Shown here one piece after another: positions 10,658-41,228 of a stretch of DNA of 44,504 bases. The stretch comes from an uncultured Lachnospiraceae bacterium (lineage in GTDB: Bacteria; Bacillota; Clostridia; Lachnospirales; Lachnospiraceae): assembly GCA_949502235.1 (NCBI GenBank), contig CATBDC010000031.1, forward strand, positions 1-44,504, written 5' to 3'. Position numbers and translations under genes: made by a program. Within the stretch, counting starts at the first letter, position 1; each line of letters starts with the position of its first letter. Under the pieces are notes generated by a model, which searched no databases, was not told the origin of the DNA, and was given only the letters and a program-made list of their open reading frames with translations.

Positions 10658-10676
10658 GCGGATTGAGGTGAACAAA

Positions 10677-13531: not shown

Positions 13532-13665
13532 GGGCTCTGATAGACACCTGTATTGTGATTGATGTACTGCAGAGCCGGGAGCCCTTCTGCCTGGAGGCTC
13601 AGGAAGCAGCAATCTTCCTTTTTGTAGTCCGGGGCTTATATTGGTCATGGAGAGATGAAATATAA
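13528..13665 (+). pseudogene. Truncated PIN-domain (VapC-like) ribonuclease gene
   Basis: ATG overlaps the helicase stop (ATGA). The first 26 residues, MRALIDTCIVIDVLQSREPF and CLEAQE, are the first strand of a PIN domain with the first catalytic Asp (LIDT). From about 13604 the DNA becomes the antisense of a recombinase gene, and the frame runs on as AIFLFVVRGLYWSWRDEI to a TAA. The other three acidic catalytic residues are lost. A complete PIN gene once followed the helicase in the same operon. Confidence 0.8.
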
Positions 13666-13892
13666 TCATTTATAGCAGTTTTATCCGCAAAATCGGGGTA
13701 TTTCAGCATAAATGCCTGGAATTGCGCCAGATCAATACGATAAGCTTTTAGCGTTTTCTTATCCAGTTTTTTAATGGATTCGCAGTTTTTCATGTAGTTT
13801 GTAATTAAAGTCTCTAATCTGTTCATAAATGTATACTCCTTAGTTTTTATATTAATTATGAATACCCATCTATGAAATGTCGAATATTTTAA
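13605..13892 (-). pseudogene. 5' fragment of a second tyrosine recombinase gene
   Basis: From the ATG at 13826 the minus strand encodes MNRLETLITNYMKNCESIKK and on to PRTTKRKIAA, about 73 residues nearly identical to the start of the recombinase at 1564-2490. The homology also covers the upstream leader (13827-13892). The gene is cut at about 13604, in the truncated PIN gene. No catalytic domain remains. The RNA hairpin that can hide the ribosome binding site in the complete copy is broken here (ATGGGTATTC no longer pairs fully with GAGTATACAT). Confidence 0.88.
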
Positions 13893-13977
13893 GTTGTTAA
13901 AATATGATATAATTAGGAGGAAATGAAAACAGATGATAGCAGGTCTGTGTATAAAGAAGAAAAGGAGAAGCAAAAGA

Positions 13978-14519
13978 TGGTATATACAACGCATTATTAT
14001 CATTCACCTGTCGGCAGCCTGCTGCTGGCAGAGGAGGAAGGGGCGCTTATAGGGGTCTGGATGGAGGGACAGAAGTATTTTCCCTGTTCCCTGCGGGGGA
14101 AGATGGAAGAAAAACAGGATTCTAAGGTTTTGAATGGTGCAAAGAAATGGCTGGACCGTTATTTTAGAGGGGAGAGACCCCCGGTTGATGAGCTGGCTCT
14201 TGCTCCTTCTGGAAGCGAATTTCGTAAAGAGGTCTGGAAAATTCTTTGTGAGATTCCTTACGGGGAAGTAACAACCTATGGTGAGATAGCACAGAAAATC
14301 GCGGAAGGCCGGGGATTGGACCGAATGTCGGCACAGGCCGTAGGCGGCGCGGTAGGCCACAATCCCATCTCAATTATCATCCCCTGCCACCGTGTCGTTG
14401 GTGCGGATGGAAGTCTGACCGGATATGCAGGAGGCATACAGAAGAAAATCAGGCTTCTTGAACTGGAAGGGGTGGATATGGAAAAATTATATATTCCTAA
14501 AAAAGGGACAGCGTGTTAA
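13978..14519 (+). CDS. ogt: Methylated-DNA-[protein]-cysteine S-methyltransferase
   Basis: About 180 residues. It repairs O6-alkylguanine by moving the alkyl group to its own cysteine. The N-terminal ribonuclease-H-like domain starts YTTHYYHSPVGSLLLAEEEG. The DNA-binding domain has EIPYGEVTTYGEIA and the active site IIPCHRVVGADGSLTGYAGG (Cys about residue 135). I place the start at 13978, after AAGGAGAAGCAAAAG; an in-frame ATG at 13923 would add an odd charged tail. A short fragment of a similar gene lies at 24667-24759. Confidence 0.93.
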
Positions 14520-14544
14520 ACTAGAGAAAAAGAAAGGATGGCCA

Positions 14545-14705
14545 ATGATACAAAATCCGATCTTCCCGGGCTTCAATCCCGCTCCGTGCATATCAGAAAA
14601 GGGGATAACTATTATGTTGCGGTTTCAACGTTTGAATGGTTTCCGGGGATTCCCGTTTATTATTCAAAGGATCTAAAAAGCTGTTTTACGGAGGTGAATG
14701 AATGA
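14545..14705 (+). pseudogene. Frameshifted N-terminal fragment of a GH43 beta-xylosidase-like gene
   Basis: The ATG frame reads MIQNPIFPGFNPAPCI; after a frameshift near 14593 the next frame reads [20 protein letters not shown] and VYYSKDLKSCF, stopping at 14703-14705. Together these are the first blade of glycoside hydrolase family 43 (NPILPGFNPDPS...[22 protein letters not shown]). Only about 50 of some 500 residues remain. The fragment is joined directly to the next pseudogene. Confidence 0.8.
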
Positions 14706-15282
14706 AAGCCCTGGTAAATTGCCGGGAATGGTCAGAGCAGAGAACATTCGATTCACACATTTTTCAAGAAATCCTAAAATTGCCGAATTCTTAAAGGCAT
14801 ACGATTTTGTAAAGGAATATGGTGAAGGAGTAGATCGTATGTGTAAAGAATTGGAAAAGGCTGGACAGAAAAGTCCAGAGTATTATACAAATGCATTTAT
14901 GCTTCAGACTGTAATTTACAATAGTAAAAATCCGACTATTCATACAGTAAATCCGACTATTTATAATGTAAATCCGACTATTCAGGAGAAAAAGTTGGAT
15001 TTCACTACTGAAAAAATAAAAAAGGACACGCTCAATGCAATTCTTTCAGAGCAAAGCTATTTTGCAAAAACAAAGCAAAATTTACTGGAGGTATATAATT
15101 CTGTTGATATTAATCAGGTATTTGGCGCACCAGAAGTAAAAAAAATACTGGGCTGTACAGATACAGCTTCAAAAGACATTATGAAGAAACTAAGGAATAT
15201 GGGAATCATAACAGAAGTAAAGGGGAAAGGAAAAGGAAAATATCGGTTTCTATATGAAGACGAAATTGAAAATTTAGTATAG
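14698..15282 (+). pseudogene. C-terminal part of an AlbA_2 / RecG-like ATP-binding regulator
   Basis: The frame begins ESPGKLPGMVRAENIRFTHF and SRNPKIAEFLKAYDFVKEYG, then EGVDRMCKELEKAG, which is the C-terminal half of the family with an N-terminal AlbA_2 (Schlafen-like) domain. The N-terminal domain is missing and the 5' side is GH43 sequence, so the start is lost. The middle has three tandem copies of NPTI (aatccgactatt at the DNA level), and the end is winged-helix-like (FGAPEVKKILGCTDTASKDI, MKKLRNMGIITEV). An ATG with a GGAGG upstream exists at 14698, so a truncated protein might still be made. Confidence 0.7.
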
Positions 15283-15550
15283 TTCCTCAAGCAAATCTGC
15301 TTATTATTCTAATTGCTCAGGATATCCTTAAAACCGCGACCGAAACGACAAAAAGCGCAAGTCTTTTAACCACGCAGGTTTTCGTCCATAGCGGCGGCTC
15401 CTTTCCTAAAAACAACAGCAATTTACAAACATCCGAAATCCTCATGTATAACATGAGATATATTCGTTTTTATTATCTGTTATATTATGCTACACTATTA
15501 ACAGGCCAAAGCGCAATAACAACTTTTAATGATTATGTGGAGGCAGTAAA
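15283..15550. other. Intergenic region, no firm gene
   Basis: No supported plus-strand gene. The minus strand holds AGGAAAGGAGCC before ATG-GAC-GAA and a stop after seven codons (near 15370-15400), probably the stub of a decayed gene. GGAGG before 15551 is the next ribosome binding site. Confidence 0.4.
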
Positions 15551-16090
15551 ATGTTTTATATCAGTGAGATTATGACAACAGAACCTGAAGAATATAAAAA
15601 CAAGCTTCAAAAGGAAACCTATAAAGCCCTGGCACAGTTCAAGATCCCTTTTGAGAGGGTAGATACGGACGAGGCAGTTACCATGGACGATTGTGTATTA
15701 ATTGATCAGAAGCTTAATATGAAAATGGTAAAGACACTGTTTTTATGCAATCGTAAGAAGACGATTTTCTATCTGTTTATTACCACAGGGGAAAAGGCTT
15801 TTGACACTAAGAATTTCAGTAATGCACTGGGAATTTCCAGGGTATCTTTTGGCCCGGCGGAAATGATGGAAGAAATGCTAGGCAATAAGGTGGGTGCGGC
15901 AACGGTATTCGGAACACTTTTGGATCTGGACAGGGATGTGCAGGTCATTATTGACAAAGAGGTGGCGGATGAGGAATACTATGGGTGCAGCGATGGGACG
16001 ACGACCTGTTACATGAAAATCAGGACGGAGGACATTATGAACAGATTCTTGCCATTTGCAAAGCATAAGCCTGTAATCGTTGAGATATAG
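15551..16090 (+). CDS. Prolyl-tRNA deacylase-like protein (ProX/PrdX, YbaK superfamily)
   Basis: A 179-residue editing-domain protein. It resembles stand-alone ProX/PrdX deacylases that remove wrongly attached alanine (or relatives) from tRNA-Pro. Visible features are FKIPFERVDTDEAVTMDDC at the N-terminus, KTLFLCNRKKTIFYLFITTG with the substrate-pocket strand, LGISRVSFGPAEMMEEMLG, and GAATVFGTLLDLDRDVQVII with the late conserved glycine loop. Length is normal. It is preceded by GTGGAGG. It ends at a fragment of the structured repeat that may serve as terminator. Confidence 0.85.
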   Translation: MFYISEIMTTEPEEYKNKLQKETYKALAQFKIPFERVDTDEAVTMDDCVLIDQKLNMKMVKTLFLCNRKKTIFYLFITTGEKAFDTKNFSNALGISRVSFGPAEMMEEMLGNKVGAATVFGTLLDLDRDVQVIIDKEVADEEYYGCSDGTTTCYMKIRTEDIMNRFLPFAKHKPVIVEI

Positions 16091-16093
16091 CTT

Positions 16094-16140
16094 CTTACGG
16101 ACTTTGCAGTAAATGAAAAGTCCTGTGTGAACATTTTTTT
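16094..16140 (+). repeat. Fragment of the structured repeat, possibly a terminator
   Basis: CTTACGGACTTTGCAGTAAATG and AAAAGTCCTGTGTGAAC match the first-hairpin end of the structured repeat (compare the complement of 36151-36190). The stem GGACTTT/AAAGTCC is kept through base changes on both arms and is followed by T8. It could end transcription of the deacylase gene. Confidence 0.6.
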
Positions 16141-16145
16141 TGCTA

Positions 16146-16174
16146 TTGATTTCATTACGAGAGCGTGTTAAAAT
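16146..16174 (+). promoter_or_regulatory. Promoter of the HD-hydrolase operon
   Basis: TTGATT (16146-16151), 17-base spacer, TAAAAT (16169-16174). It would start an mRNA near 16181 with a leader of about 124 bases. Confidence 0.6.
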
Positions 16175-16199
16175 TAAAAAAAAGGAACATATTATTATA

Positions 16200-16283
16200 G
16201 TACCGAAGACAGTAGGTCACACGTAAACCCTACCGAGGGAAGTATTCTTTAGGAACTATGCAATAGGTGTATAGTTCCTAATT
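16200..16283 (+). promoter_or_regulatory. L10-leader-like RNA element and following hairpin
   Basis: ACCGAAGACAGTAGG (16202-16216) and CCTACCGAGG (16229-16238) form the hallmark of the ribosomal protein L10 autoregulatory leader: stem GTAGG/CCTAC next to an asymmetric kink-turn-type internal loop. A second hairpin follows, AGGAACTAT (16251-16259) with ATAGTTCCT (16271-16279), then an AT-rich stretch ending TTTT. In rplJ leaders the L10-L12 complex binds this structure to repress expression. The genes downstream here are not ribosomal. Assignment rests on motif recall only. Confidence 0.5.
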
Positions 16284-16304
16284 ATTGTTTTAGGAGGATT
16301 TGTT

Positions 16305-16634
16305 ATGTGCATGTATATTGGAACAGAAGTTTTGTTATCAAACTTATTGGGCTATTATCCAAAATCAAACGAGGGCATTGGTTTTTCCGAAATTGAAAAA
16401 TATTGTATTGCTATTAAAAAGGCTATAGTAAATGATAAAAACTCTAATGCAAATTTTATTTCTTTTCGGTTAAATGATGATGAATTAGAAAGCAATTTAC
16501 GACTTTACCCTGGTGTCTTTAAGAAATTTATGGATAAATACTATAAAGGAAAGAATTTCGATGGTTATAATTTTGACTCAAGAGTGCGGCCAGAGATTAG
16601 TTTAGTTATGAAAAGAACAGCGAGTACTTTGTAA
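16305..16634 (+). CDS. Small protein of unknown function, partner of the HD hydrolase
   Basis: A 109-residue protein preceded by TAGGAGGATTTGTT. No signal peptide or membrane segment is seen. The middle is mixed alpha/beta (IEKYCIAIKKAIVNDKN, FISFRLNDDELESNLRLYPG), and the end is basic (RVRPEISLVMKRTASTL). I recognise no family. It is the first gene after the L10-like leader and lies 30 bases before the HD gene, so the two form an operon. It could be a regulator, inhibitor or adaptor of the HD enzyme. Confidence 0.7.
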   Translation: MCMYIGTEVLLSNLLGYYPKSNEGIGFSEIEKYCIAIKKAIVNDKNSNANFISFRLNDDELESNLRLYPGVFKKFMDKYYKGKNFDGYNFDSRVRPEISLVMKRTASTL

Positions 16635-16664
16635 TTAAATTATACGATTGAGTAGGGGAAGGCT

Positions 16665-18815
16665 ATGATTGAGCAAAGGACAAAAGTTTTTAAAGATAAT
16701 GTACACGGCTATATAGAAATACCTCTTGACTATGTAGAATTATTTGTAGATACAGAAATATTTCAACGGTTACGGGGAATAGAGCAAACTGGGATGAGAA
16801 CTCTTTTTCCGTCAGCACGACATGACAGGTTTATTCATTCGTTGGGAACATTTTATTTAGGACATAAAGCACAATTATGTTTTCAGAGAAATGTTAAGGC
16901 TCGTTATAATAATGATACAAATAGTGTGAATCATTATAATGTATTTAAAAATGAATCTAAAAGTATAGCATTTTGGGAAAATTGCAGAGTGCTCTTTGAA
17001 ATCGCTTGCTTATTACATGACTGTGGACATGCTCCATTTTCTCATACTTTAGAATTTCATTATGATAAAGAATCGCTTGTGGAACCCATTGCTACATTAA
17101 AGGATAAATTAAAAGAGTATATAGGAACTAAAGGATTTTTATCCGATTTTAAAGGTCAGGGGTCTCCCCACGAACGGATGAGTGCTTTAATTGTTTGTAC
17201 GGAGTTCCAAAATCAAATAAATGGTCTTTTAACAAAGTATGGTCTTCTGCAAATTGATGATGAGAATGCAATTGAGTTTATAGTTAGAATGATAATTGGG
17301 TGTAAATTTGAAAATGAAACGAAACCTAATCAAATAAGAAACTGTTTTATAGAATTGCTAAATTCAAAGTCTATAGATGTTGACTCTTTAGATTATATTA
17401 TAAGGGATTCAAAACTGTCTGGAATTGATAATATGAATATCGATGTAGACCGTTTGTTGGGTTCTCTTACTTTGATTGAAGAAACGGAGTTTGTAAATGT
17501 TCATTTTCGTAATATTGAATTATCCACTAATATTACCGAGGGAATTTTAGTTAAAAATGGGATTCAGGCAAAAATAAACGGAAAATGCAGGGGGAGTGTA
17601 GAGCTAAAGGATAGAGTGAGTGGCACTGTTGCCGGCATGGTTGATATAGATGGAAATTTTAGGCCAAATAATAAGGTTGTCTTGAAACCAAATTCTAACG
17701 GAAATAATGTCCTTTTAGTTAACGGCGTATCATACATAAATGAAATTAGCCCGTTAGAGCATTCTGCAAACGTAAAATTGTATGGTAGTTTACAAGATGA
17801 GATATCTATAAAAGGTGAGGAAGTGAATTTTGGCGAAGATACGAATTCAATTATAAATGTAAATTCAGATTCAGTCTTTTTTTCGTCAGTCTATGTAAAT
17901 GCTAAATTAGAAGGAATATTTAAAGGAGTTATATTAGGAAATTATTCACATATTGCCGGAGGAAAATTAAAATGTCGATTAGGTTTTCATAAAAGTTCTT
18001 TAAGTGTTATTCAAAATGTAATTATTGCTAGAAATTATGAATATCAATGGATTTATTCCCACCATAAAGTTGTTTATTCGGCAAATTACTTAATCATTGA
18101 TTTGTTCCGAAACTGTATAGAGTATCTTCTGGAAGAAGAACATAGAAAAGAACTTCTTACTGATGATAAAGTACTCAAGAGAAGTCCTGATGATACATTG
18201 GCGAAAATTTTATCGTGGGATACAATGATAAATCACTCCGATAGGGAACAATGTTTTCATTTTTATAAATTGGGCTGTCACACTTTTTTTAGAATAAGTG
18301 ATGCTGATGTAATGTCCTTATTCAAAGACTGCTACATAGATTGTATAGAAAAAGGCAGAACAGATATTTTACTTTACAAGCTGCTTGTTGAATATCATAC
18401 TCGTAAATTTAAGCATAGCCTTTGGAAATCTTTCGCAGAATTTAATTTGTTTTTTAACGATTTTACTATTGATGATAGGAAATTGCTATTTGAAAAAATG
18501 ATTGAAAACTCTGGCTATCATTTATTTGATCAATACGGGTATTTTAACGAAGAATGGGAACGGGCATTTAATTCTTTTGGGATGTATAATGTTGTATGGG
18601 TAAATGGAGACAGTAAACTAAAGTCACTAAATCCAGATGATACATTTATAGCGTTTAAAGATGAAGTTATGACATATAGGACGATAAGCGCATCTAATGA
18701 TATTCGTCCTGTAAGCAGACTGGATTTATTTTACATCTACTATGACGTTATTTCAAAAGATTCTGTAAATAGGGAATTATTTAAAGACTATCTCAGAGAA
18801 AAAATACAGTTATAG
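16665..18815 (+). CDS. HD-domain phosphohydrolase (SAMHD1/dGTPase-like) with a beta-rich insert
   Basis: A 716-residue protein. The N-terminus is that of SAMHD1-like dNTP triphosphohydrolases: KVFKDNVHGYIEIPLDYVEL, FQRLRGIEQTGM, FPSARHDRFIHSLGTFYLG (metal His about 58), LLHDCGHAPFSHTLE (HD about 118-119) and SLDYIIRDS with the last metal Asp (about 241-247). Between this core and its continuation (SSLSVIQNVIIARNYEYQWI, about 444) sits some 160 residues (about 278-437) of short glycine-spaced beta strands, such as INGKCRGSVELKDRVSGTVA, which resembles a beta-solenoid. The family hydrolyses dNTPs, and some members deplete them against phages. The insert is unusual. Codon use is AT-rich, unlike flanking core genes. 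Confidence 0.85.
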   Translation: MIEQRTKVFKDNVHGYIEIPLDYVELFVDTEIFQRLRGIEQTGMRTLFPSARHDRFIHSLGTFYLGHKAQLCFQRNVKARYNNDTNSVNHYNVFKNESKSIAFWENCRVLFEIACLLHDCGHAPFSHTLEFHYDKESLVEPIATLKDKLKEYIGTKGFLSDFKGQGSPHERMSALIVCTEFQNQINGLLTKYGLLQIDDENAIEFIVRMIIGCKFENETKPNQIRNCFIELLNSKSIDVDSLDYIIRDSKLSGIDNMNIDVDRLLGSLTLIEETEFVNVHFRNIELSTNITEGILVKNGIQAKINGKCRGSVELKDRVSGTVAGMVDIDGNFRPNNKVVLKPNSNGNNVLLVNGVSYINEISPLEHSANVKLYGSLQDEISIKGEEVNFGEDTNSIINVNSDSVFFSSVYVNAKLEGIFKGVILGNYSHIAGGKLKCRLGFHKSSLSVIQNVIIARNYEYQWIYSHHKVVYSANYLIIDLFRNCIEYLLEEEHRKELLTDDKVLKRSPDDTLAKILSWDTMINHSDREQCFHFYKLGCHTFFRISDADVMSLFKDCYIDCIEKGRTDILLYKLLVEYHTRKFKHSLWKSFAEFNLFFNDFTIDDRKLLFEKMIENSGYHLFDQYGYFNEEWERAFNSFGMYNVVWVNGDSKLKSLNPDDTFIAFKDEVMTYRTISASNDIRPVSRLDLFYIYYDVISKDSVNRELFKDYLREKIQL

Positions 18816-18873
18816 TATATTAGTATCCCCTCTTACTGATAATCTAAAAGAAAGTTAATTCTTTTAAATGAAC

Positions 18874-18897
18874 CGGAAAACTATTTTTAGTTTTCCG
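18874..18897. terminator. Hairpin after the HD gene
   Basis: CGGAAAACT (18874-18882) pairs perfectly with AGTTTTCCG (18889-18897). No T-run follows, so it may be a weak terminator or an RNA-stabilising 3' end. Confidence 0.45.
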
Positions 18898-18935
18898 ATT
18901 CTATAACTCTGCTTATTAACGATTTCCTCCTGACT

Positions 18936-19029
18936 AATCCATTTAAAATTGCCTTCGTCAATGGGATTTGCTCACACCTGAATCATTTTCTTGCGGTCTG
19001 CGCAATAAATGCGCACTTGTGAACAGTAC
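18936..19029 (-). repeat. Structured repeat, degraded copy 2
   Basis: About 90 bases match copy 1 (core ATGGGATTTGCTCACACCTG), but the left end with its terminal inverted repeat is missing and the first hairpin is disrupted (TCTGCGCAATAAATGCGCA). No target duplication is visible. It lies between the two transcription units of the AT-rich island. Confidence 0.8.
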
Positions 19030-19061
19030 AAAATGGCTTCCCAAGACGCAAACTAATAAAC

Positions 19062-19090
19062 TTGATATCTGGCGATTCATGTCCTATAAT
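19062..19090 (+). promoter_or_regulatory. Strong sigma-A promoter of the kinase/TIR-like operon
   Basis: TTGATA (19062-19067), 17 bases, TATAAT (19085-19090), 38 bases before the ATG at 19129. The -10 is a perfect consensus. Confidence 0.8.
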
Positions 19091-19128
19091 GTTAAAATAT
19101 AGTAGGATTTGAAAGAGGGGGCATTTTT

Positions 19129-20238
19129 ATGAAAGTTCTGTTTTTAGTTGACGGTGCCGCTGGAGCAGGCAAGTCGGATTTGGTAAACTATATTGCGAAT
19201 ACATATCAAAATACGGCCACGAAAATCAGCAAATATACTACCCGGAAAAGACGTATTACAGAAGAAGCTAAAAAAACTGATTTAATTTTTATTTCGGAAG
19301 AAGAATTTACAAAAAAGAAAGCAAATAAAAAAGATACATTATTCAGTTATTTTTATGGAGGAAGCCAGTATGGTTTTTATAAGGGAGATGTCGATAAAGC
19401 CATTGAGCAATACAATTGTACCTTTATTATTATAAGGAATCAAGATTTGATTCGAAAGTTATGTGTGATATATAAAGATAAAGTTCTTGTTGTGCCGATT
19501 TACATTTATACAGATATGGGTCTTATTGAAGCTCGTTTAAAAGAAGATGGATATGACGAAGATACAATAAAATTTCGAATAGAGCGTTCAGAGGCGATTT
19601 TTAAAGAATATCTAGAAAATGATATTTATACAAATGTAATAATTAACCGTTCGAATGTAACTGATTTACACAGGAAAATCAGACTGCTCATGGATAAGTA
19701 TACCAATATTGATAAGCAAGAAGACAAACTATATGTATCACCTACACAATATTTTAGATTGCACAATTTATCATATTATAAGGATAGGTTAACGCGCCAA
19801 CTCAAGGAATATCCATATGAAAAAAACTTTTTTCTTATGATGAAATTCAGAAAAAACAATGAGGCATTTTACGGTTTTATAAAAAATGAATTAGAAAAGT
19901 ATGGGTATAATTGTGTACGTGCTGATGAGCCTGAATGGAATTTAACAAATAATGTGTATAATCCGATAGCGGTGCTTGACTGCTGCAAATATGGTATAGC
20001 TCTATTTGATGAGCCAGAAGAAGGTGCAAATTATAACCCTAATGTTGCATATGAGTTAGGGATTATGCAGGATCAAGGCAAGCCGTGTCTTATTCTTAAG
20101 CATTCCGCATTGAAAGTAGTACCTTTTGATTTAGTAAAAGAATTATATAAGTCGTATACACGTGAGATAGAGTTTCAGAAAATTTTTAAGGACTGGCTCA
20201 TTTCAATAAAAAATTCCGAGCAAAGTAGTACTGATTAG
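19129..20238 (+). CDS. Guanylate-kinase-like / TIR-like fusion protein
   Basis: A 369-residue two-domain protein after GAAAGAGGGGGC. Residues 1-195 are guanylate-kinase-like: P-loop GAAGAGKS (9-16), SKYTTRKRR (34-42, GMP-site arginines), ISEEEF (55-60), then the lid region ARLKEDGYDEDTIKFRIERS. Residues about 230-362 look like a TIR or nucleoside-deoxyribosyltransferase-like fold: FFLMMKFRKNNEAFYGFI, CVRADEPEW, CKYGIALFDEPEEGANYNPN and VAYELGIMQDQGKPCLIL, with Glu about 309 at the usual catalytic place. Such domains cleave NAD or related nucleotides or sense nucleotide signals. I infer an anti-phage effector whose kinase-like part may sense or modify a nucleotide. Two membrane protein genes follow. 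Confidence 0.72.
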   Translation: MKVLFLVDGAAGAGKSDLVNYIANTYQNTATKISKYTTRKRRITEEAKKTDLIFISEEEFTKKKANKKDTLFSYFYGGSQYGFYKGDVDKAIEQYNCTFIIIRNQDLIRKLCVIYKDKVLVVPIYIYTDMGLIEARLKEDGYDEDTIKFRIERSEAIFKEYLENDIYTNVIINRSNVTDLHRKIRLLMDKYTNIDKQEDKLYVSPTQYFRLHNLSYYKDRLTRQLKEYPYEKNFFLMMKFRKNNEAFYGFIKNELEKYGYNCVRADEPEWNLTNNVYNPIAVLDCCKYGIALFDEPEEGANYNPNVAYELGIMQDQGKPCLILKHSALKVVPFDLVKELYKSYTREIEFQKIFKDWLISIKNSEQSSTD

Positions 20239-20275
20239 GCGGATACGTAGTATTTGCTTTTGGGAGGTGAGAATT

Positions 20276-21295
20276 ATGTATGAGATTTCTTCATTAACCA
20301 TGCTATCAAATGTTCTGGGGCCACCATCTGCGCTCATTAGTTTCGCAGACAAGTTTCCTGACTGGATAGATGAAGCCAAGTATAGACGGAAAAAAAATTA
20401 CATACATGAGGAACTTCTACATGAATTATATACAGTACAAAAACGTGCAGAAACGCGTCTTGAAAAGTATATCAGTGATAGCGATTTTTCAGATATAAAT
20501 AAAAATGAATATAGGGATCTGCTCAAAAAAATTCAACAAGATGATGCCATATATTGGTTTAGAAACCTACCTTACCATGATTATTTGTCTGAGGATGGCT
20601 TTGGCCGTTTAATTGCTGGAATGAAGAAGCTCCAGGAACGTTATAAAAACAATGATAAAGCTGAAGAACTTGAGAATTTATATACGGGCTTTTTTTATGA
20701 AGAAATGGCACATTTTGATATGCTTGGGAAATGGTATAATTATACAATTAACAGAACATTGTTAGAAAAAGCCTTTGAAATTCAAAAGGAACTTGCTGTA
20801 TGTGATAGAAAAATCGGTAACATATTAAATGATACGGCCAGTATACAAGAAAGTGTGAATACAGCAACCCAATCTGTAATAAAAGGGAATCAAATTTTAC
20901 ATGGATTTTCTAAGGCATTTGATAATATATCGCTTTATGCTGCATTAGCCATTATTGGGACAGGAGTTGTTTTCTTATTTGGAGTACTTGTTGGCATTAA
21001 ATTAGATCCAATATATCTAGTAGGAACGCCTATATGCTTATTTCTGTCTGATCTGTTTGTCCGTGGTTTTAGGCAGAAAGACGATGAAGCTATATGCACA
21101 GCATCAAAACAAAGCTGGTGGTTTGTTTTGATGCTTACAATTCTTCAAACCATAATTGCAACTACGATTGTTTTTGTAATTTCAGGAGTGTTTTCAAATA
21201 ATGATAGCAGGAATTTTTGCTTTTGGATTCTTTCACTGCTTTTAGGAAGTCTTACAATTCAAATTATCCGAAACATAAAATTATCAAAATTCTGA
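20276..21295 (+). CDS. Membrane protein with helical cytosolic N-terminus
   Basis: About 339 residues. The first 220 are charged and helical (YRRKKNYIHEELLHELYTV) with a coiled-coil-like stretch around 170-215. The last 120 contain four likely membrane helices (LYAALAIIGTGVVFLFGVLV, IYLVGTPICLFLSDLFV, WFVLMLTILQTIIATTIVFV, FCFWILSLLLGSLTIQII). The ATG at 20276 is chosen because GGGAGGTGA precedes it. It starts 38 bases after the kinase/TIR-like gene, so they are probably co-transcribed. No known family is recognised. Position suggests a membrane partner or effector of the upstream protein. Confidence 0.72.
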   Translation: MYEISSLTMLSNVLGPPSALISFADKFPDWIDEAKYRRKKNYIHEELLHELYTVQKRAETRLEKYISDSDFSDINKNEYRDLLKKIQQDDAIYWFRNLPYHDYLSEDGFGRLIAGMKKLQERYKNNDKAEELENLYTGFFYEEMAHFDMLGKWYNYTINRTLLEKAFEIQKELAVCDRKIGNILNDTASIQESVNTATQSVIKGNQILHGFSKAFDNISLYAALAIIGTGVVFLFGVLVGIKLDPIYLVGTPICLFLSDLFVRGFRQKDDEAICTASKQSWWFVLMLTILQTIIATTIVFVISGVFSNNDSRNFCFWILSLLLGSLTIQIIRNIKLSKF

Positions 21296-21365
21296 CTTGA
21301 TATAAAGCTGCCTAAAATGCCATTGCTTTATAAAGCTTTTATTTTATACTGAAAAAGAAATGTGA

Positions 21366-22544
21366 TTGATAAATAAAGATGAATTTGGTATAATAATAAA
21401 ATTAAAACACGAAGATGCTTTTAGAAAATGTGATTCTAGTGTAAATTGTTTTTATGACAGAATATATTGTCCTTATATTTACATATCGGGAGGAAAAATG
21501 AGAAGTTTTGGATTATGGTATAAACATAGTAATGAAAGCAATAATATTCCTGTCTTTTCTGTACATATAAACTTTTGGTCGGAGTCGGTAAAGAAGGATA
21601 GCGGAACTCCGGATTTGGATGTCGGGATAAAAATCAAGAATTTCAGAAGTGTTAATGAGTTAATATTTCATTGCCCCTTTGTTATTGTGGAAAGAGAAGT
21701 TAAAGATTTGGCGTCTAAACTGTGCAAGTTAGAAAATGCTAATATTGTTTTTAATACAGATGGGGTTATACAAGCAAAGAAACCGTATTCTGTGTATTCT
21801 TTCAAAAAAAACGAGAATGAGGAAAACCTTTTGTTGTTCCCTCTAATTCAAGATCTTGAAGGGATATATTACCTAAATGAAGAAGATAATAAAACTGACA
21901 TAGTATTTAACTTTTCAATATTCAGGGAATATCTTAAAAATAAAAATGAGTTTGCTGGAATAAATGAGGTATATATTAGATTTAGAATTTCTTCTGCTGA
22001 ATTAAGAAATAGTATTTATTTTGATTGTGAACCATCAAATAAGTCGTTTGAGAGTGCTTTTTCGGGTACACGTATTTTTGATTTTAAGATTAATGAAAAG
22101 AGAAATTTAGGTTCAAAAACAATTGCAAAGATTGAGCTGCAGGAATATTTGTTTCCCCAAATAGATAATATTCATTTATTAGTTATGGAACCATCTTCTT
22201 ATGACGTTGAATCATTTGCTAACAAACAGATGACTTGCCGGGAATTGGAAGGGGAACTTTGGGATGATTATTTTGGGGCAAAAATTGATTATTCTAAAGA
22301 TAGGGTATTAGCATATCATTGGAAATTTGAAAATGAGTGTTCATGTTTGATTAAAGTTAAATATTCAAAAACGAATGTTGTAACTTTAATAGCATATATA
22401 GTTATGGTTTTGGCGTTAGGTGTCTTGGGTAGTACTATAGTGGCTATACTACAGAGCGAATGTGTTGAATATTTTCCTTATATATCGAGTGGTATTGGAT
22501 GTTTCCTTTTTGCGATTGGGCTTTTTCTGGGAAGAAAAAAATAG
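21366..22544 (+). CDS. Unknown protein with C-terminal membrane hairpin
   Basis: Up to 392 residues with a large, mostly beta-rich soluble part (VFSVHINFWSESVKKDSG, IRFRISSAELRNSIYFDCEP) and two C-terminal membrane helices (VVTLIAYIVMVLALGVLGST, YISSGIGCFLFAIGLFLG) ending in RKK. The first possible start is TTG (21366-21368) with only a weak AAAGAAATG upstream, and an internal ATG at 21498 (MRSFGLW) is an alternative. No family is recognised. It is in the same direction as the kinase/TIR-like and membrane genes, 70 bases downstream. The layout suggests a membrane-anchored sensor or effector. Confidence 0.65.
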   Translation: MINKDEFGIIIKLKHEDAFRKCDSSVNCFYDRIYCPYIYISGGKMRSFGLWYKHSNESNNIPVFSVHINFWSESVKKDSGTPDLDVGIKIKNFRSVNELIFHCPFVIVEREVKDLASKLCKLENANIVFNTDGVIQAKKPYSVYSFKKNENEENLLLFPLIQDLEGIYYLNEEDNKTDIVFNFSIFREYLKNKNEFAGINEVYIRFRISSAELRNSIYFDCEPSNKSFESAFSGTRIFDFKINEKRNLGSKTIAKIELQEYLFPQIDNIHLLVMEPSSYDVESFANKQMTCRELEGELWDDYFGAKIDYSKDRVLAYHWKFENECSCLIKVKYSKTNVVTLIAYIVMVLALGVLGSTIVAILQSECVEYFPYISSGIGCFLFAIGLFLGRKK

Positions 22545-22573
22545 AAATATAATTTGATAGGGAGGAAAGTAGA

Positions 22574-23224
22574 ATGAAAAAAATGATTAATGGTAAAAGG
22601 TACTATTTATATACATCACTTTCTAGAGAACTAAAGAAAATATATCAATATGAAATATACAGATTTTTGTGCCGGTTGGTGTTTGAGTATCAAGGATTTC
22701 AAGCTTGGTATCAAGGGTTATATACAGAAGATTTTGAATTAAAATGCAATCGTGAGATAATAATTTGTGAAGACCAATTTCGAATTGTTGGTGTAGCTAT
22801 AATAAAAAATGATTTACAAGAGAAAAAGATATGTACGCTAAGAGTGGCGCGAGAGTATCAGCATCAAGGAATTGGTCATAATTTAGTTGAAATGTGTATG
22901 CGGCAATTGCATACCGATAAACCGATGATTACGTTACATAAGAGCAAATTGAATCAGTTTGAAAAACTGCTAAGATACTATAATTTTGAGTTAGAGCAAA
23001 CACAGAAACATTATTACAGTATCTTTAGCACTGAATTAGTATTTAATGGTCTATTGCCAGAGAAAGAGCTTATTTTTAATAAAATTGAGCTAATAGACAT
23101 GGAAAAACTATATAGAGTTCTTGTCCTTAGAGGTAAGAAAAATTTTGAAGATTATGTGGACGCTTGTATTAAGTGTTGGTATAATCGGGCTCAAATGAGA
23201 AAGATTAATATGCTGGAAATTTAA
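22574..23224 (+). CDS. GNAT-family N-acetyltransferase
   Basis: A 216-residue protein after GGGAGGAAAGTAGA. The acetyl-CoA binding core is clear: strand LRVAREYQHQGIGHNLVEMC (about 89-108), where QHQGIG is the Q/R-x-x-G-x-G/A motif, followed by a later strand MITLHKSKLNQFEKLLRYYN. The N- and C-terminal parts are not conserved with a known subfamily. The substrate is unknown; GNAT proteins in toxin or defence loci can modify tRNA, nucleotides or proteins. It lies 29 bases after the preceding gene and ends at a terminator, so it is probably the last gene of the operon. Confidence 0.82.
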   Translation: MKKMINGKRYYLYTSLSRELKKIYQYEIYRFLCRLVFEYQGFQAWYQGLYTEDFELKCNREIIICEDQFRIVGVAIIKNDLQEKKICTLRVAREYQHQGIGHNLVEMCMRQLHTDKPMITLHKSKLNQFEKLLRYYNFELEQTQKHYYSIFSTELVFNGLLPEKELIFNKIELIDMEKLYRVLVLRGKKNFEDYVDACIKCWYNRAQMRKINMLEI

Positions 23225-23226
23225 TG

Positions 23227-23256
23227 AAAAGCCATCTGTATATATAGATGGCTTTT
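23227..23256. terminator. Terminator after the GNAT gene
   Basis: AAAAGCCATCT (23227-23237) pairs with AGATGGCTTTT (23246-23256). The stem ends in a T-run on either strand, so it can work in both directions. Confidence 0.85.
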
Positions 23257-23266
23257 ACATGAGTAG

Positions 23267-23682
23267 TCTCGGAAACTCAATGAAACTACAGCAAAAATAT
23301 AGAGCTACACAGAGATTCGGGGATAATGGAAGAAGAAATGATAACAGATGAAGGACTGTAAGTCAGTGGTTAGAAAAGAAGAGCATGCTGAGTAAGCCTG
23401 CCTAAAAGACTTTTTTGACAAGCTGGGTACTGATACGATTCGGATTCATTTATGGCCTACACAAACGGCCAGTTTTAAATCTTGCATCCAGATGGATGCA
23501 GGGGATCGAGATTAAGGCTGAGGAGTTTGTGGTAATCCTCGGAGTAAAGGTCAAAATGATAACGAGGGTTTATTTATTAAAATAATATAAACATTATGGA
23601 ATTGTTACAGAAATGTAGAGGTGAAAATGAATTTTTGGAAATGAAAAAAGTCTGTAAACTCAAGGGTTTTGAGTTTCCGAGA
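23267..23682. repeat. 416-bp unit bounded by 14-bp perfect inverted repeats
   Basis: TCTCGGAAACTCAA (23267-23280) and TTGAGTTTCCGAGA (23669-23682) are exact inverses. The enclosed DNA has no long frame and no recognisable gene; it holds a small hairpin near 23485-23500 (TTGCATCCAGATGGATGCAG). It resembles a non-autonomous insertion element or a decayed IS. No clear target duplication is seen outside the repeats. Confidence 0.5.
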
Positions 23683-23711
23683 ACACACTACATATGAAAG
23701 AGGTGAATTAA

Positions 23712-24593
23712 GTGCAGCTAATTTGTGGTGTTCATGGAGTCGGAAAAACTGTTTTTGCCAAAAAACTGTGCCAAAAATTATTGATTGAATATTATTCAGC
23801 AAGTGAGCTAATTAAGAAGATGGCAAACCGTGAAATAGGTGATTATAAAAAAGTACAATACATTTCAGAGAATCAAAAGTTATTGTTAGAAGCATTATCT
23901 AAAATAAATGATACTCAATATATATTAGATGGTCATTTGTGTTTAATGAATACGCAAAGTAAAATAGAACGAATATCCTATGATGTTTTTCAATCAATGA
24001 ATATAGAAAGTATTTATATAGTTGTAGATGTGCCTGAAAAGATACAAAATAGGCTAAGAGATAGGGATAATCAAATCTGGGATCTTGGAGTTATTGCGTC
24101 ATTTCAACAAGAAGAATTTGCGTATGCTAAATATTTAGCTAAAAAAATGAACATCCCGCTAAAAATTATTTATGATAATAAGGAAGTTGCTAAATGTTCT
24201 TTTTTAGAAAAAGAAAATATTATTATGCCAATAAAGCCAGTTTTTGCAGAGAAAATATTATCTGGAGAAAAGAAATATGAATATAGAAAACAATTATGCA
24301 AAAAGGAAATAAATAAAATATATATATATGCAACAGCTCCGGTAAAAATGATTATTGGTGAGGCTTGGGTTGTTGATAAATTGAGCATGGATAAGGAAAA
24401 ACTGTGGCAAGGAACACAGAAGTATGCAGGAATTTCTAAGAAATTCTACGACCAATACTTTAAATACCAGGATTGCGCGTGTGCGTATAGAATAGGAGAA
24501 GTAAGACAATATAGATTTCCGGTTACGCTAGACAGTATAGGAATAGAATATGTTCCACAATCATTTGTCTATGTGGACAAGCTAGGACTTTAG
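23712..24593 (+). CDS. P-loop kinase-like / ASCH-domain fusion protein
   Basis: A 293-residue protein starting at GTG, with GAAAGAGGTGAATTA upstream. Residues 1-165 are an adenylate-kinase-like P-loop domain: GVHGVGKT (6-13), YILDGHLCL (about 70-78, Walker B-like), and VVDVPEKIQNRLRDRD with LID-type arginines. Residues about 171-270 are an ASCH (PUA-like) domain: IKPVFAEKILSGEKKYEYRK, YATAPVKMIIGEAWV and LWQGTQKYAGISKKFYDQYF. ASCH domains bind RNA or modified nucleosides. A nucleotide kinase or RNA-repair role is plausible. The gene stands behind the 416-bp inverted-repeat unit and is AT-rich like the rest of the island. Confidence 0.78.
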   Translation: MQLICGVHGVGKTVFAKKLCQKLLIEYYSASELIKKMANREIGDYKKVQYISENQKLLLEALSKINDTQYILDGHLCLMNTQSKIERISYDVFQSMNIESIYIVVDVPEKIQNRLRDRDNQIWDLGVIASFQQEEFAYAKYLAKKMNIPLKIIYDNKEVAKCSFLEKENIIMPIKPVFAEKILSGEKKYEYRKQLCKKEINKIYIYATAPVKMIIGEAWVVDKLSMDKEKLWQGTQKYAGISKKFYDQYFKYQDCACAYRIGEVRQYRFPVTLDSIGIEYVPQSFVYVDKLGL

Positions 24594-24666
24594 CCTATGT
24601 TTTCTTTCCATCATTTCTCCATAGAAAAAATCCCCATCAAAGAAAGACGGAGAGGCGCGGATAAAT

Positions 24667-24759
24667 TTAAATAAAAATTTTCAGATCTGTCAGACCGATT
24701 TCATCAGCGGCCAGCAGGATTTTTTCTACCGATGACTGATATTTTGTCGTATATTGCAT
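24667..24759 (-). pseudogene. N-terminal fragment of a second ogt gene
   Basis: From the ATG at 24759 the minus strand reads MQYTTKYQSSVEKILLAADE and IGLTDLKIFI, then a TAA. This matches the start of methylguanine methyltransferases (TYxSPxGxILLAADExGLTGLWF) up to the second strand, after which homology ends. The catalytic domain is missing. Confidence 0.65.
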
Positions 24760-24824
24760 TACTATTTCCTCATTTAATATTCTCATTGAAAACTTCCGCC
24801 CATAAATGCTTTCCTGTTCAGTCA

Positions 24825-26039
24825 CTAAACAAGTTCTTTATCCAAAAGGAAGTCAATCACGTTTATATTCAAAATGCCATTATCATCATACCAACGCTTT
24901 CCAATATCTTTCCTTACTACAATTTTAGGGAAAGAATCTCTGGTAAGCATAAATGGTCTGAGTTCTGCCTCTGCTTTTTCATCAGTAGGCATAGCATATG
25001 CTGACTGGATATACGTTCGTTTTCCTCCCGAATTTACCACAAAGTCAATTTCTCTTGGAGTACGAACTGAGCTTCCACTGTCATTAACAGTTCTTGAATA
25101 AACGATGCCAACATCAACGGAAAACTGTCTGATAGTCAATTCATTATATATAATATTTTCCATTATATGCGTCATTTCCTGCTGTCGAAAACCAATTCTT
25201 GCATTTCTTAGCCCTATATCCTCACTGTAATATTTATTCGGAGAGTCAAAATAGGATTTTCCTTTTACGTCATATCGCTTGCTTTCTGAAAAAAGGAACG
25301 CATCCTCCAAATGTCCGATATATGCCCGAATCGTATTGGCAGACGCTCCTTCCCCTTGTTTAGACTTCAGAGTATTTGCAATTCTGGTTGGATTTGTCAA
25401 TGATCCAACCGATGAGCAAAGCAAATCTAAAATTTGCTCCAGTACATCTTGCCTTTCTATCCTCTTACGCTCAACAATATCCTTAATATACACTTCTGAG
25501 AAAAGTGATTTAAGATAATTCATCTTAGCCGTATCATCAGGTCTTGATAAAATAAGCGGCATACCGCCATAAAATGCGTATTCATCAAATGCTTCGTTCT
25601 TATCTCCACCAACAGCAGAATAATACTCAGCAAAACTAAGTGGATGTACTCTTATTTCATCGCTTCGTCCTCGAAACTCAGTAAGAATATCACTGGAAAG
25701 CATTTTTGAATTACTTCCGGTCACATAAACATCTAAATTTGATAAACTTCTTAAATCATTAAGAGCATCGTAAAAAGTAATTTTCTTACCATCTGGATTA
25801 TATGGATTTGCTACCTCATCAGACATTTGTATTTCATCAACAAAAAGATAATATTCCTCTTTGCTTCCTTCCACTTTTTCTCTTACATACGATGAAAGAA
25901 TGAGTGGATTACGATATTTAATATCTTTTGCAAGGTCAAGCTCAATCGTAATAACCTGCTCCTCTTTTACACCGTTCCGGGTTAAGTAATCTCTGTATAT
26001 ATTTTTTAAAAGATAGGATTTTCCGCACCTTCTGATATT
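24825..26039 (-). pseudogene. 5'-truncated AAA ATPase with DUF4143 domain
   Basis: About 405 codons in one frame: RRCGKSYLLKNIYRDYL (end of Walker A), YYLFVDEIQMSDEV (Walker B), VYVTGSNSKMLSSDI (sensor 1) and FRGRSDEIRVHPLSFAEYY, then the C-terminal DUF4143 nuclease-like part with REIDFVVNSGGKRTYIQSAY. The frame is cut at 26040-26042 by a stop just before Walker A. The first 40-50 residues and any start codon are missing. An internal ATG (25874) lies after Walker A, so any product would lack ATPase activity. These proteins are common stand-alone ATPases in gut Firmicutes. Confidence 0.82.
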
Positions 26040-26101
26040 CTAAAAAGAATTATTGATTCAGCTCAAGGGAACTTTACTTTTTAAAACGCGAATAGACAGA
26101 G

Positions 26102-26140
26102 AAAACCGCCCTTTGTACTTTTGGCGAGTGTCGGGGCGGT
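26102..26140 (-). terminator. Terminator of the degraded hicB copy
   Basis: On the minus strand ACCGCCC pairs with GGGCGGT, followed by TTTTCTCT. It lies 45-80 bases after the hicB-like stop. Confidence 0.6.
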
Positions 26141-26183
26141 GTTCTTATCAGATAAAGCATATTCTGTTTTGGACGGCTGCCAG

Positions 26184-26597
26184 TCATAGCGATTGTACTT
26201 TTGTCAATAAGGCATCCTGCAATACTTTTGAAAAGTTGATGCTTTTTTCCTCGCAAAGAGTATTCAGCCACATGGGAATGTTTAAAGTCTTTTTTACTGC
26301 CTTGTCGCTGTGCTGCCTTGCGTATTCGGTCATATCCACCAGTACCATGTTAACGAAAGCGCTTTCCGCAGCGGATTCCATTTCAAATTCTTTCAGGATG
26401 GCAGCAGGATTGATTTCGCCTAATGAACTGGGAGCCGGGAGGGGATCGCCGTCACGCAGAGCAGTAAACAGATGCAGGCCGCAGGCATCCTGGGCCATGT
26501 GCATAGCGTCCGCTACATTATCCCCAAACGTTGCGAGGTTTCCCAAATCGGGGAAGATACAAAATACTATAGACGCAGGACTGACATATTCTAATTC
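26184..26597 (-). pseudogene. Degraded HicB-like antitoxin gene
   Basis: The frame reads EYVSPASIVFCIFPDLGNLA, TFGDNVADAMHMAQDACGLH and a C-terminal ribbon-helix-helix-like end (VKKTLNIPMWLNTLCEEKSI, NFSKVLQDALL). This is a HicB antitoxin, but the N-terminal strands are fused after a small deletion (normally about ten more residues between the Pro and the IFPDLG strand). No start codon remains upstream of 26546, and no hicA is next to it. A start at an internal ATG would give a protein without the first strands. Confidence 0.7.
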
Positions 26598-26625
26598 TTA
26601 AACGTCCCTGGCATTTTTCTATTTT

Positions 26626-26655
26626 TTATTAGAATAAAATTTATTAGAATAAAAT
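26626..26655. repeat. Perfect 15-bp tandem duplication
   Basis: TTATTAGAATAAAAT occurs twice in a row (26626-26640, 26641-26655), immediately upstream of the hicAB promoter. Confidence 0.8.
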
Positions 26656-26657
26656 TA

Positions 26658-26686
26658 TTGAAAATACGCATAATACGCATTATAAT
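26658..26686 (+). promoter_or_regulatory. hicAB promoter with operator repeats in the spacer
   Basis: TTGAAA (26658-26663), 17 bases, TATAAT (26681-26686). Two direct copies of AATACGCAT (26663-26671 and 26672-26680) fill the spacer. A repressor bound there would block the polymerase; the HicB helix-type DNA-binding end is the natural candidate. Confidence 0.75.
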
Positions 26687-26739
26687 ATAGACAAATAAAC
26701 AGAAAGGAGAAATGCCATGAATGAATAAGGAGGTATTGA

Positions 26740-26919
26740 ATGAGATTTAGAGAAATTGAGAATCTGATAGAAAAAGATGGTTGGTATCAAGTAAAGCAAA
26801 AAGGTTCACACCACCAGTACAAACACCCGACTAAGCCAGGAAAAGTTACAATACCAGAATATGGAGGGGATTTGAACCCCGATACAATTAAATTAATTAT
26901 GAAGCAAGCGGGGCTTTAA
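26740..26919 (+). CDS. hicA: HicA toxin (mRNA interferase)
   Basis: A 59-residue protein: MRFREIENLIEKDGWYQVKQ, KGSHHQYKHP, TKPGKVTIPEYGGDLNP and ending in IMKQAGL. This is the double-stranded-RNA-binding-like fold of HicA, with the catalytic His in KGSHHQYKHP. It cleaves mRNA to stop growth unless bound by HicB. The ATG follows AAGGAGGTATTGA. A three-codon upstream frame (ATG-AAT-GAA-TAA, 26716-26727) overlaps the ribosome binding site region and may tune translation. The antitoxin gene starts 39 bases later. All hallmarks are intact. Confidence 0.92.
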   Translation: MRFREIENLIEKDGWYQVKQKGSHHQYKHPTKPGKVTIPEYGGDLNPDTIKLIMKQAGL

Positions 26920-26958
26920 GCCTCATTTGCCCAATCTTTATAAAAGGAGGCGAATATA

Positions 26959-27363
26959 TTGAAATTAATCTATCCGGCTGTATTTAAGCCTTTTACAGAT
27001 CAAAGCGGCGGATACGTAGTAGAATTTCCGGACTTGCCCGGTTGTGTAACAGAAGGCAAAAACTTAGAGCAAGCTATTGAAATGGGAATTGACGCGGCTA
27101 GTGGTTGGATATTGGGAGAACTGGAAGACGGAGAGCAAATACCATGTGCTTCTGATTATTCAGAGATAACCGCTGAAAATGGGTGTATGATAAATATGCT
27201 ATTACTGGACATTGATTCCTATGAAGAAAAGTATGGTGAAAAAGCAGTAAGAAAAAATCTTACAATTCCTGCGTGGCTGAATACTTTTGCTGAAAAAAAT
27301 AATATCAATTTCTCTAAACTTTTACAAGATGCTTTATTTTCAATGGCACAAGCAAATAAATAG
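26959..27363 (+). CDS. hicB: HicB antitoxin
   Basis: A 134-residue protein starting at TTG (26959-26961), eight bases after AAAGGAGG. The N-terminal partial-RNaseH-like domain is complete: IYPAVFKPFTDQSGGYVVEF, PDLPGCVTEGKNLEQAIEMG and IDAASGWILGELEDGEQIP. The C-terminus (RKNLTIPAWLNTFAEKNNIN, FSKLLQDALF) has the ribbon-helix-helix form used to bind the operator. It pairs with HicA, blocks it and represses the operon. Its C-terminal end closely resembles the degraded copy at 26184, which points to related systems nearby. Confidence 0.93.
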   Translation: MKLIYPAVFKPFTDQSGGYVVEFPDLPGCVTEGKNLEQAIEMGIDAASGWILGELEDGEQIPCASDYSEITAENGCMINMLLLDIDSYEEKYGEKAVRKNLTIPAWLNTFAEKNNINFSKLLQDALFSMAQANK

Positions 27364-27489
27364 ATATAGGATTTTCCTCTTATCTAAAGATTTTAGGAAA
27401 TTCTGAAAAATATTGACAAAAAAATTTTATTACTATTAAAGGAGAGTCCTGCCAATAAGTGGACATTCTCATTCCAAATTTTGAAATGC

Positions 27490-27702
27490 CAGATATAGCA
27501 AACTTGGAAATCTCAATGAATATCTTGTTGAGATTGACAAGCAAGTACAAAAACATTTTATTGGATTGTAGAGCAGATGAAACAAAAACAAGAAATGACA
27601 GAACAATTAAAGGCAATTAACCCTATAAATTGGACACAATTAATGAATTGTATCAGACAACAGGTAAATGAAATAATTTTTGCAGAACTTATTTTTAATT
27701 GA
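27490..27702 (+). pseudogene. Frameshifted TnpV remnant
   Basis: One frame gives LNEYLVEIDKQVQKHFIGL and a stop; after a shift near 27565 the other gives IVEQMKQKQEMTEQLKAINP and INWTQLMNCIRQQVNEIIFA, ending ELIFN. Together this is the C-terminal half of TnpV, an accessory protein of Tn4451/TnpX-type transposons (EQMxxxxGITEQLKAxNQMxWV...NEIIxxELI). The N-terminus is absent. It marks an old integrated transposon. Confidence 0.75.
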
Positions 27703-27709
27703 TTTGGAA

Positions 27710-27741
27710 AGCGGCATTGGCACACAGCTAATGCCGCTGTT
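27710..27741 (+). terminator. Hairpin after the tnpV remnant
   Basis: AGCGGCATT (27710-27718) pairs with AATGCCGCT (27730-27738), then GTTT. Probably the tnpV terminator. Confidence 0.65.
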
Positions 27742-27753
27742 TCATCTGAGAAA

Positions 27754-28017: not shown

Positions 28018-28052
28018 ATTGGCTTACGGCTTGTAAGCCGATTTGCAGTTTC

Positions 28053-28094: not shown

Positions 28095-28132
28095 TCTGCC
28101 CTCTCAATCATTTTCGATTGGAGGAAATAAGG

Positions 28133-41227: not shown

Positions 41228-41228
41228 T

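Follow-up and report, generated by a model that had tools for sequence, protein, structure and literature searches.

A mem2-GNAT-P-loop/ASCH cassette in an AT-rich island of a Lachnospiraceae genome as a predicted variant of GNAT-EVE/ASCH systems

Introduction

An AT-rich block of seven genes on contig CATBDC010000031.1 of an uncultured Lachnospiraceae bacterium (GenBank assembly GCA_949502235.1) raises the question of whether its genes form a single undescribed anti-phage system or several units that have become neighbors. The former was the original prediction, made from the sequence and a listing of its open reading frames (ORFs). The window, as used here, is the whole stretch of DNA that was analyzed, which is an entire contig (44,504 bp; C31), one of the 101 that make up a genome of 3.78 Mb. 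All seven genes are open (16305-24593 in the ORF listing of the window) and their G+C contents are low (29.7-33.4%), as had been claimed. However, none of the searches points to the island as a whole being a single conserved system. The island is instead at least three independent units: a 109-amino acid protein with an HD hydrolase (u109-HD), a kinase/TIR-like fusion with a membrane protein (kinTIR-mem1), and a cassette of a second membrane protein (mem2), a small GNAT acetyltransferase, and a P-loop/ASCH fusion. The earlier division into units was thus wrong in that it separated the GNAT from the P-loop/ASCH gene, which belong to one unit, and grouped mem1 with mem2.

Genes and boundaries of the cassette

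Alignment to related loci indicates that mem2, GNAT, and P-loop/ASCH are one cassette at 21355-24590. Homology between the window and a 3.7-kb Lachnospiraceae contig (L048) ends at 21355, and mem1 is therefore not part of the mem2 unit. Window positions 21355-23260 and 23689-24590 match L048 at 89% and 94%, respectively, with nothing between them on the L048 side. The intervening 428-bp insert (23261-23688, without strand, delimited by alignment to L048 and L049) is lacking in both of these loci, where GNAT and P-loop/ASCH adjoin; it is because this insert parts them in the window that the two genes were first seen as separate units. The insert carries 14-bp perfect inverted repeats (23267-23280 and 23669-23682), and contig C51 of this genome holds one partial copy (80%); the insert looks like a miniature inverted-repeat transposable element. 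In L049, the module is likewise an AT-rich block (29.5% G+C) between flanks of 42-45%.

A sigma-70-like promoter-like site (TTGATA-17-TATAAT, 11/12; 21366-21394, plus strand, as are the seven island genes) heads the cassette. It is among the two best in 16000-24900 and is also readable in L048; it should be noted that the 50 promoter-like sites in 16000-24900 do not exceed the number in shuffled sequence (46.4 +/- 5.8). The TTG listed at 21366 as the start of mem2 was rejected in favor of the ATG at 21498, because this TTG is the first hexamer of the promoter-like site and the homologs begin at the position of 21498. So delimited by an alignment of 21 family sequences, mem2 (348 amino acids; 21498-22544) comprises a soluble beta-rich domain (about residues 1-290) followed by two C-terminal membrane helices, with hydropathy peaks at 297-315 and 326-344 and an AlphaFold2 model with a predicted local distance difference test score (pLDDT) of 84.7 and a predicted template modeling score of 0.79. 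No PADLOC match to mem2 was found in the window, L049, or L054, and the mem2 of L052 gave a weak match to DpdG (0.0054).

The small GNAT acetyltransferase (216 amino acids; 22574-23224; Pfam PF13673, 2.8e-10) has residues E83, K85, and C87 that are invariant in the alignment of 21 sequences, and no PDB relative at E 0.01. Profile comparison aligns it with the GNAT half of GNAT-EVE proteins (hhalign E 1.3e-10), and the two also have in common a stretch before the core. In both mem2 and GNAT, synonymous codon changes relative to L048 and L049 are at least as many as non-synonymous ones. The third gene (23712-24593) encodes an AAA_17 P-loop kinase-like domain (about residues 1-165; PF13207, 3e-14) fused to an ASCH domain (about residues 166-293). 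PADLOC, named in the original prediction as a check, identified the ASCH half as PDC-M11B (1.5e-39, residues 169-290). Of the earlier domain calls, GNAT, P-loop (AAA_17), and the guanylate kinase domain of kinTIR all pass Pfam cut-offs; ASCH falls under its cut-off (16.4 of 21.2 bits) and is clear by PADLOC; and HD is weak in Pfam (18.8 of 22 bits) but is backed by PDB and PHROG matches.

Distribution and co-occurrence

Relatives were sought with a profile of four GNATs against genome contigs, and 16 of the 57 stretches matched were relatives; one viral contig from 22 candidate viral stretches brought the total to 17 loci. The 16 genome loci include Lachnospiraceae, another Clostridia metagenome-assembled genome (MAG), Paenibacillus, Helicobacter and other Campylobacterales, several Alphaproteobacteria, Duganella, and a Coriobacteriaceae MAG. 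At all 17 GNAT-found loci mem2 adjoins GNAT. ASCH is nearby in 16 (the exception being L058), the P-loop domain in 12, and a GNAT-EVE protein in 11, that of L060 being in pieces; absences at L048, L055, and L062 are weak because these contigs end near the module. The first mem2 profile recovered 14 of the 16 loci, and L052 and L053 scored only once they were added to it, while the mem2 of L131 scored 4e-96 though absent from the profile. Searching from mem2 instead of GNAT (tblastn) gave matches in 4 of 72,556 plasmid records, with ASCH, P-loop, and GNAT-EVE nearby in all four and the small GNAT in three; one plasmid locus (L047) is from the same species as L051. In Vibrio and Burkholderia plasmids, the gene for an ASCH protein stands with those for an acetyltransferase and an ATP-binding protein, and a Nitrosophilus plasmid has mem2 and the small GNAT in addition to this set. 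In contrast, 38 control loci that had been retrieved for unrelated purposes (213,358 bases) yielded no mem2, GNAT, ASCH, or GevT and only three weak P-loop matches, in loci that came from a guanylate-kinase search. Within Lachnospiraceae, P-loop/ASCH matches were found in 8 of 200 genomes, including that of the window; three of these matches are weak.

Between groups the gene order varies and the partners stay. The order is mem2-GNAT-P-loop/ASCH in the window, L048, and L049; mem2-GNAT facing P-loop, ASCH, and GNAT-EVE in Alphaproteobacteria (e.g., L054, L056, L057, L061, and L063); P-loop-GNAT-EVE-ASCH-mem2-GNAT in Paenibacillus; and GNAT-EVE-ASCH-mem2-GNAT in Helicobacter. Outside Lachnospiraceae the partners have diverged to 16-36% identity and are still together in several phyla. 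For mem2 and GNAT, pairwise distances are correlated with r of 0.905 (20 loci) or 0.857 (17 loci), for mem2 and ASCH with r of 0.77 (19 loci) or 0.69 (16 loci; permutation p <= 0.0003 for both pairs), and for GNAT and ASCH with r of 0.76 and 0.65 (p <= 0.0006); L046 and L108, which lack the small GNAT, were omitted, the smaller sets drop L048, L049, and L053, and the correlations ignore species relatedness. The mem2-GNAT-P-loop/ASCH module is thus very probably a real conserved set. The co-occurrence proposed for the island is borne out for this module, which recurs in several phyla, but not for the island as a whole: none of kinTIR, mem1, or HD was found at E 1e-3 in the 16 GNAT-found genome loci. 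A caspase-domain (Peptidase_C14) protein lies near the module in Methylobacterium bullatum (L045, 3626-5422).

Relation to GNAT-EVE/ASCH and other known systems

In Bell et al. (2020; PMC7641849), the GNAT-EVE passages treat operons in which (PIN-)GNAT-EVE is accompanied by ASCH, and frequently by an AAA_17 ATPase, as predicted toxin-antitoxin (TA) systems in defense contexts; they credit Iyer et al. and cite a proposal in which a DNA base is the target of acetylation by GNAT-EVE. PADLOC models PDC-M11A and PDC-M11B match the GNAT-EVE and ASCH proteins, the pair being listed as a candidate (PDC) only. In phage PhiR47_2 (PV340567), the ASCH homolog is annotated as "GevA antitoxin" and stands beside a "GevT toxin" and cI. 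The window cassette resembles this system in its PDC-M11B-type ASCH, in its AAA_17 P-loop companion, which is frequent though not invariable there, and in its small GNAT, which is similar to PDC-M11A-type proteins in their GNAT half and matches PDC-M11A over the GNAT stretch only (3.1e-5). It differs in lacking an EVE domain and a PDC-M11A protein, in the fusion of P-loop and ASCH, and in the addition of mem2 and a free GNAT. No GevT-profile match at 0.01 was found among 258 ORFs of the window, and tblastn gave just three short stretches (best E 0.015). Because the GNAT-EVE protein that PDC-M11 requires is lacking, the cassette is classed as a variant of PDC-M11 rather than as one of its members.

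At all four Lachnospiraceae loci with a fused P-loop/ASCH gene (the window, L048, L049, and L127), the small GNAT lies just before the fusion and GNAT-EVE is missing, whereas at all three Lachnospiraceae loci with separate, clear P-loop and ASCH genes GNAT-EVE lies between them and the small GNAT is missing. The lack of GNAT-EVE on the short L048 contig is weak evidence, and L127 lacks mem2. From these comparisons, the small GNAT appears to take the place of GNAT-EVE in the fused loci, and the cassette is best described as a variant of the predicted GNAT-EVE/ASCH/AAA_17 system in which the mem2 and free GNAT arm is the new, putative component. The claim that the combination is undescribed stands for mem2 and GNAT within the searchable literature, but not for ASCH with AAA_17, which the above passages treat as a predicted TA or defense set. 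Those passages mention neither the mem2-GNAT partners nor the word "membrane", and "transmembrane" is absent from the main text of the same paper; the term "GNAT-EVE" was met in one paper and "PDC-M11" in none of the literature searched, from which many subscription papers and preprints were out of scope. In that literature, no published mechanism was found for GNAT-EVE/ASCH systems, whose prediction dates from 2020 at the latest.

Type II toxins of the GNAT family include TacT, AtaT, and KacT. Like these, the window GNAT is a single-domain protein beside a possible antitoxin; unlike them, it has no ribbon-helix-helix (DUF1778) partner, neighbors mem2 and P-loop/ASCH instead, is 216 amino acids long with its own conserved EKKICT motif, and has no solved relative at the threshold given above. 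The nearest solved ASCH by sequence is ZmASCH (5guq, 3e-11), a single-strand RNA nuclease with cleft residues Tyr47, Lys53, and Ser128 according to the relevant passages of PMC5615036. Tyr47 and Lys53 are aligned and identical in the window ASCH, and Ser128 lies outside the aligned stretch, where a PQS triplet fits by eye alone; unlike ZmASCH, the window ASCH is fused to a P-loop domain. For another ASCH protein, YqfB, passages of PMC6972931 describe hydrolysis of N4-acetylcytidine with Thr24 as nucleophile, together with Lys21 and Arg26, in a KxxTxR motif. Assignment of the window ASCH to the YqfB type was rejected: its motif at residue 185, GEKKYEYR, keeps Lys and Arg, and Thr24 is replaced by Glu (matched by eye).

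Proposed working and alternative explanations

Given the observed unit, its partners, their co-occurrence, and their conserved motifs, we tentatively favor a toxin-antitoxin-like working with phage defense as the selected role, a reading to which we assign somewhat less than an even chance. The GNAT-EVE protein would be replaced by a free GNAT from its subfamily, with a tail-anchored mem2 added. The GNAT would be the toxic arm and, by analogy with known GNAT toxins, might acetylate a translation component such as aminoacyl-tRNA. The ASCH domain, with its ZmASCH-like RNA-contacting residues, could act as a restraining or substrate-recognizing arm, and the fused kinase-like domain could reset or sense the nucleotide state. 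The beta domain of mem2 is presumably intracellular, with the two C-terminal helices in the membrane; mem2 could tie GNAT to the membrane, or it could sense membrane damage in infection and release GNAT, leading to growth arrest.

Other explanations merit consideration. The cassette may be a stability or addiction TA system of mobile elements, with GNAT as toxin, ASCH-kinase as antitoxin, mem2 as an accessory, and any effect on phages incidental. The GevT/GevA pair beside cI in PhiR47_2, an integrase-like stretch at the start of L048 (by eye), and the mere candidate status of the pair in PADLOC all fit this explanation, which we regard as possible if on balance unlikely, given that a conserved membrane partner would be unusual for a plain addiction cassette. 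The proposal of DNA-base acetylation cited by Bell et al., along with the N4-acetylcytidine chemistry of YqfB, would accord with a nucleic acid or nucleotide modification system in which GNAT acetylates an invader base or nucleotide, with ASCH as reader or eraser of the mark, the kinase acting on the nucleotide, and mem2 keeping the system at the membrane. YqfB chemistry is unsupported because its nucleophile is replaced by Glu in the window ASCH, and the unit has no reader (EVE) domain; such a function is considered quite improbable. Finally, the genes could be a chance accumulation of unrelated imports, with mem2, GNAT, and P-loop/ASCH together only through recent descent. That the island as a whole was not found elsewhere, and that searches gave no full-length relatives of kinTIR and mem1, is what such an accumulation would produce, yet the persistence of the cassette partners in several phyla at 16-36% identity with changed order contradicts it for the cassette, where it is judged very improbable; for the juxtaposition of the three units it is still the best reading.

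A natural variant that keeps ASCH and the kinase with a stripped-down GNAT and a membrane partner tells which parts of the system are interchangeable and makes a GNAT-EVE/ASCH-type system testable in three genes. It would probably escape tools that require PDC-M11A.

The u109-HD pair and its L10 leader

Upstream in the island, u109 and HD are predicted to be a SAMHD1-like pair of their own, preceded by an orphan leader of the ribosomal-protein L10 type (RF00557; 16185-16314, plus strand; 46.8 bits against a cut-off of 44, E 5.5e-5), a feature overlooked by the original prediction. The leader scores above gathering and its core (CCGAAGACAG...CCGAGG) is exact. It stands before u109-HD instead of rplJ, and no L10 homolog was found in the window; by comparison, an L10 gene is in the locus for all 31 comparison leaders, a selected set consisting of the 30 best-scoring loci and the genome's own. 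Leaders above the cut-off occur in 369 of 397 Lachnospiraceae genomes, and 12 of the 397 (e.g., G017, G083, G088, G194, G618, and G741) have at least two matches. The window genome has two such places, the other preceding rplJ. A T-A core pair is present in the window leader and in 14 of the 31 L10-gene leaders, with C-G in 13 and no exact core in 4; because the genome's own rplJ leader has C-G, the window leader is not a fresh copy of it. No L10 leader was found at homologous u109-HD pairs, with L105 and L106 searched at the gathering score and these places searched again, under L084 and L085, up to E 1. A terminator-like hairpin (16249-16281, plus strand; -18.1 kcal/mol for 16245-16295) lies between the leader core and u109; terminator-like hairpins in the region number 4, against 2.7 +/- 1.8 in shuffles.

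The partner protein u109 (109 amino acids; 16305-16634) was recognized with a profile of u109-like genes that directly precede HD in G087 and G163; of 136 window ORFs, u109 alone scored above inclusion (E 2.7e-4). At 12 family HD loci and the Nitrosophilus one, a u109 profile matched only G087 and G163, both of which are in it. The HD hydrolase (716 amino acids; 16665-18815) is SAMHD1-like by PDB sequence search (6pwy, 3.8e-14; 2o6i, 5e-14; SAMHD1 entries from 3.9e-12), and its H, HD, and D metal motif lies at residues 55, 116, and 238. It shares HD motifs and a SAMHD1-like N-terminal region with SAMHD1 and bacterial dGTPase-type deoxynucleoside triphosphatases. It differs from them in its length, an extra insert, the small partner u109, and the L10 leader ahead, and it scores far below the NCBIfam dGTPase cut-off. 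The insert, of about 150 amino acids (residues about 290-435), is missing in the three relatives aligned. A SAMHD1-like HD relative beside the mem2 module was seen at 1 of 21 loci, the Nitrosophilus plasmid (L040, 9754-11661).

With its terminator, the orphan leader could switch u109-HD on when free L10-L12 changes during phage takeover. If working, it would be a direct line from ribosomal-protein supply to a predicted nucleotide-hydrolyzing enzyme. The joint reading, in which a membrane-anchored mem2-GNAT arm plugs into GNAT-EVE/ASCH, replacing the toxin in Lachnospiraceae, and an L10-leader-controlled SAMHD1-like pair depletes nucleotides, is offered as a doubtful one.

The kinTIR-mem1 pair and the flanks of the island

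The kinTIR-mem1 pair stands alone as a unit. kinTIR (19129-20238) combines a guanylate-kinase-like domain (PF00625, 6e-7; phrog_1815, 9.9e-21) with a TIR/deoxyribosyltransferase-like part. The earlier TIR-like call survives just as a weak nucleoside-deoxyribosyltransferase match (PF05014, 0.0096; 16.5 bits against a cut-off of 28.8). Proteins in 10 plasmid records are 34-37% identical over 25-32% of the query. A promoter-like site (19062, 11/12) precedes kinTIR, and an interspersed repeat of about 93 bp (18936-19028), with dozens of copies in the genome and its congeners, lies farther upstream. mem1 (20276-21295), an orphan membrane protein by hydropathy, begins 37 bp after kinTIR; no intact relative was found, and its single-sequence model is too poor for use (pLDDT 42.6).

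The AT contrast of the island is real against the main flanks (43.8% G+C at 8000-15550, 47.1% at 28001-31000, and 50.4% at 36001-44504) but not uniform, since AT-richer stretches also occur at 1-7 kb (36-43%) and at 25-28 kb and 31-36 kb (34-39%). Among the matches listed between window 10000-29900 and five congeners, most lie outside the island; inside 16300-24600 they comprise an interspersed repeat and, from the 428-bp insert, one stretch of 104 bp. This, together with the low G+C, suggests that the island was imported. The description of the left flank as core genes holds for RecD2, which is retained in congeners (DNA identity of 86% in G596 and 68% in G597 and G600), but the gene at 15551-16090 is probably accessory because its protein matches in five congeners are just 37-48%. 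The degraded, defense-related right flank is present as described, with a truncated DUF4143 ATPase that lacks the first 90 profile positions, plus a fragment and HicA/HicB-like genes recognized by eye. The HicA/HicB-like region (26651-27370) is 93% identical to G597 over 720 bp, and a further Hic-like fragment lies beside it (26079-26558).

Farther right is a large pilin/sortase-type surface-protein cluster (29642-42784, by eye). To the left, a tyrosine-recombinase-like gene (308 amino acids; 1564-2490) has a near copy in the form of an N-terminal fragment at 13599-14003 (89% DNA identity over 290 bp). A 42-bp repeat (16092-16133) directly to the right of the YbaK-like gene has 98% copies on contig C36 of the same genome and in G600, and a 90% copy on C51.

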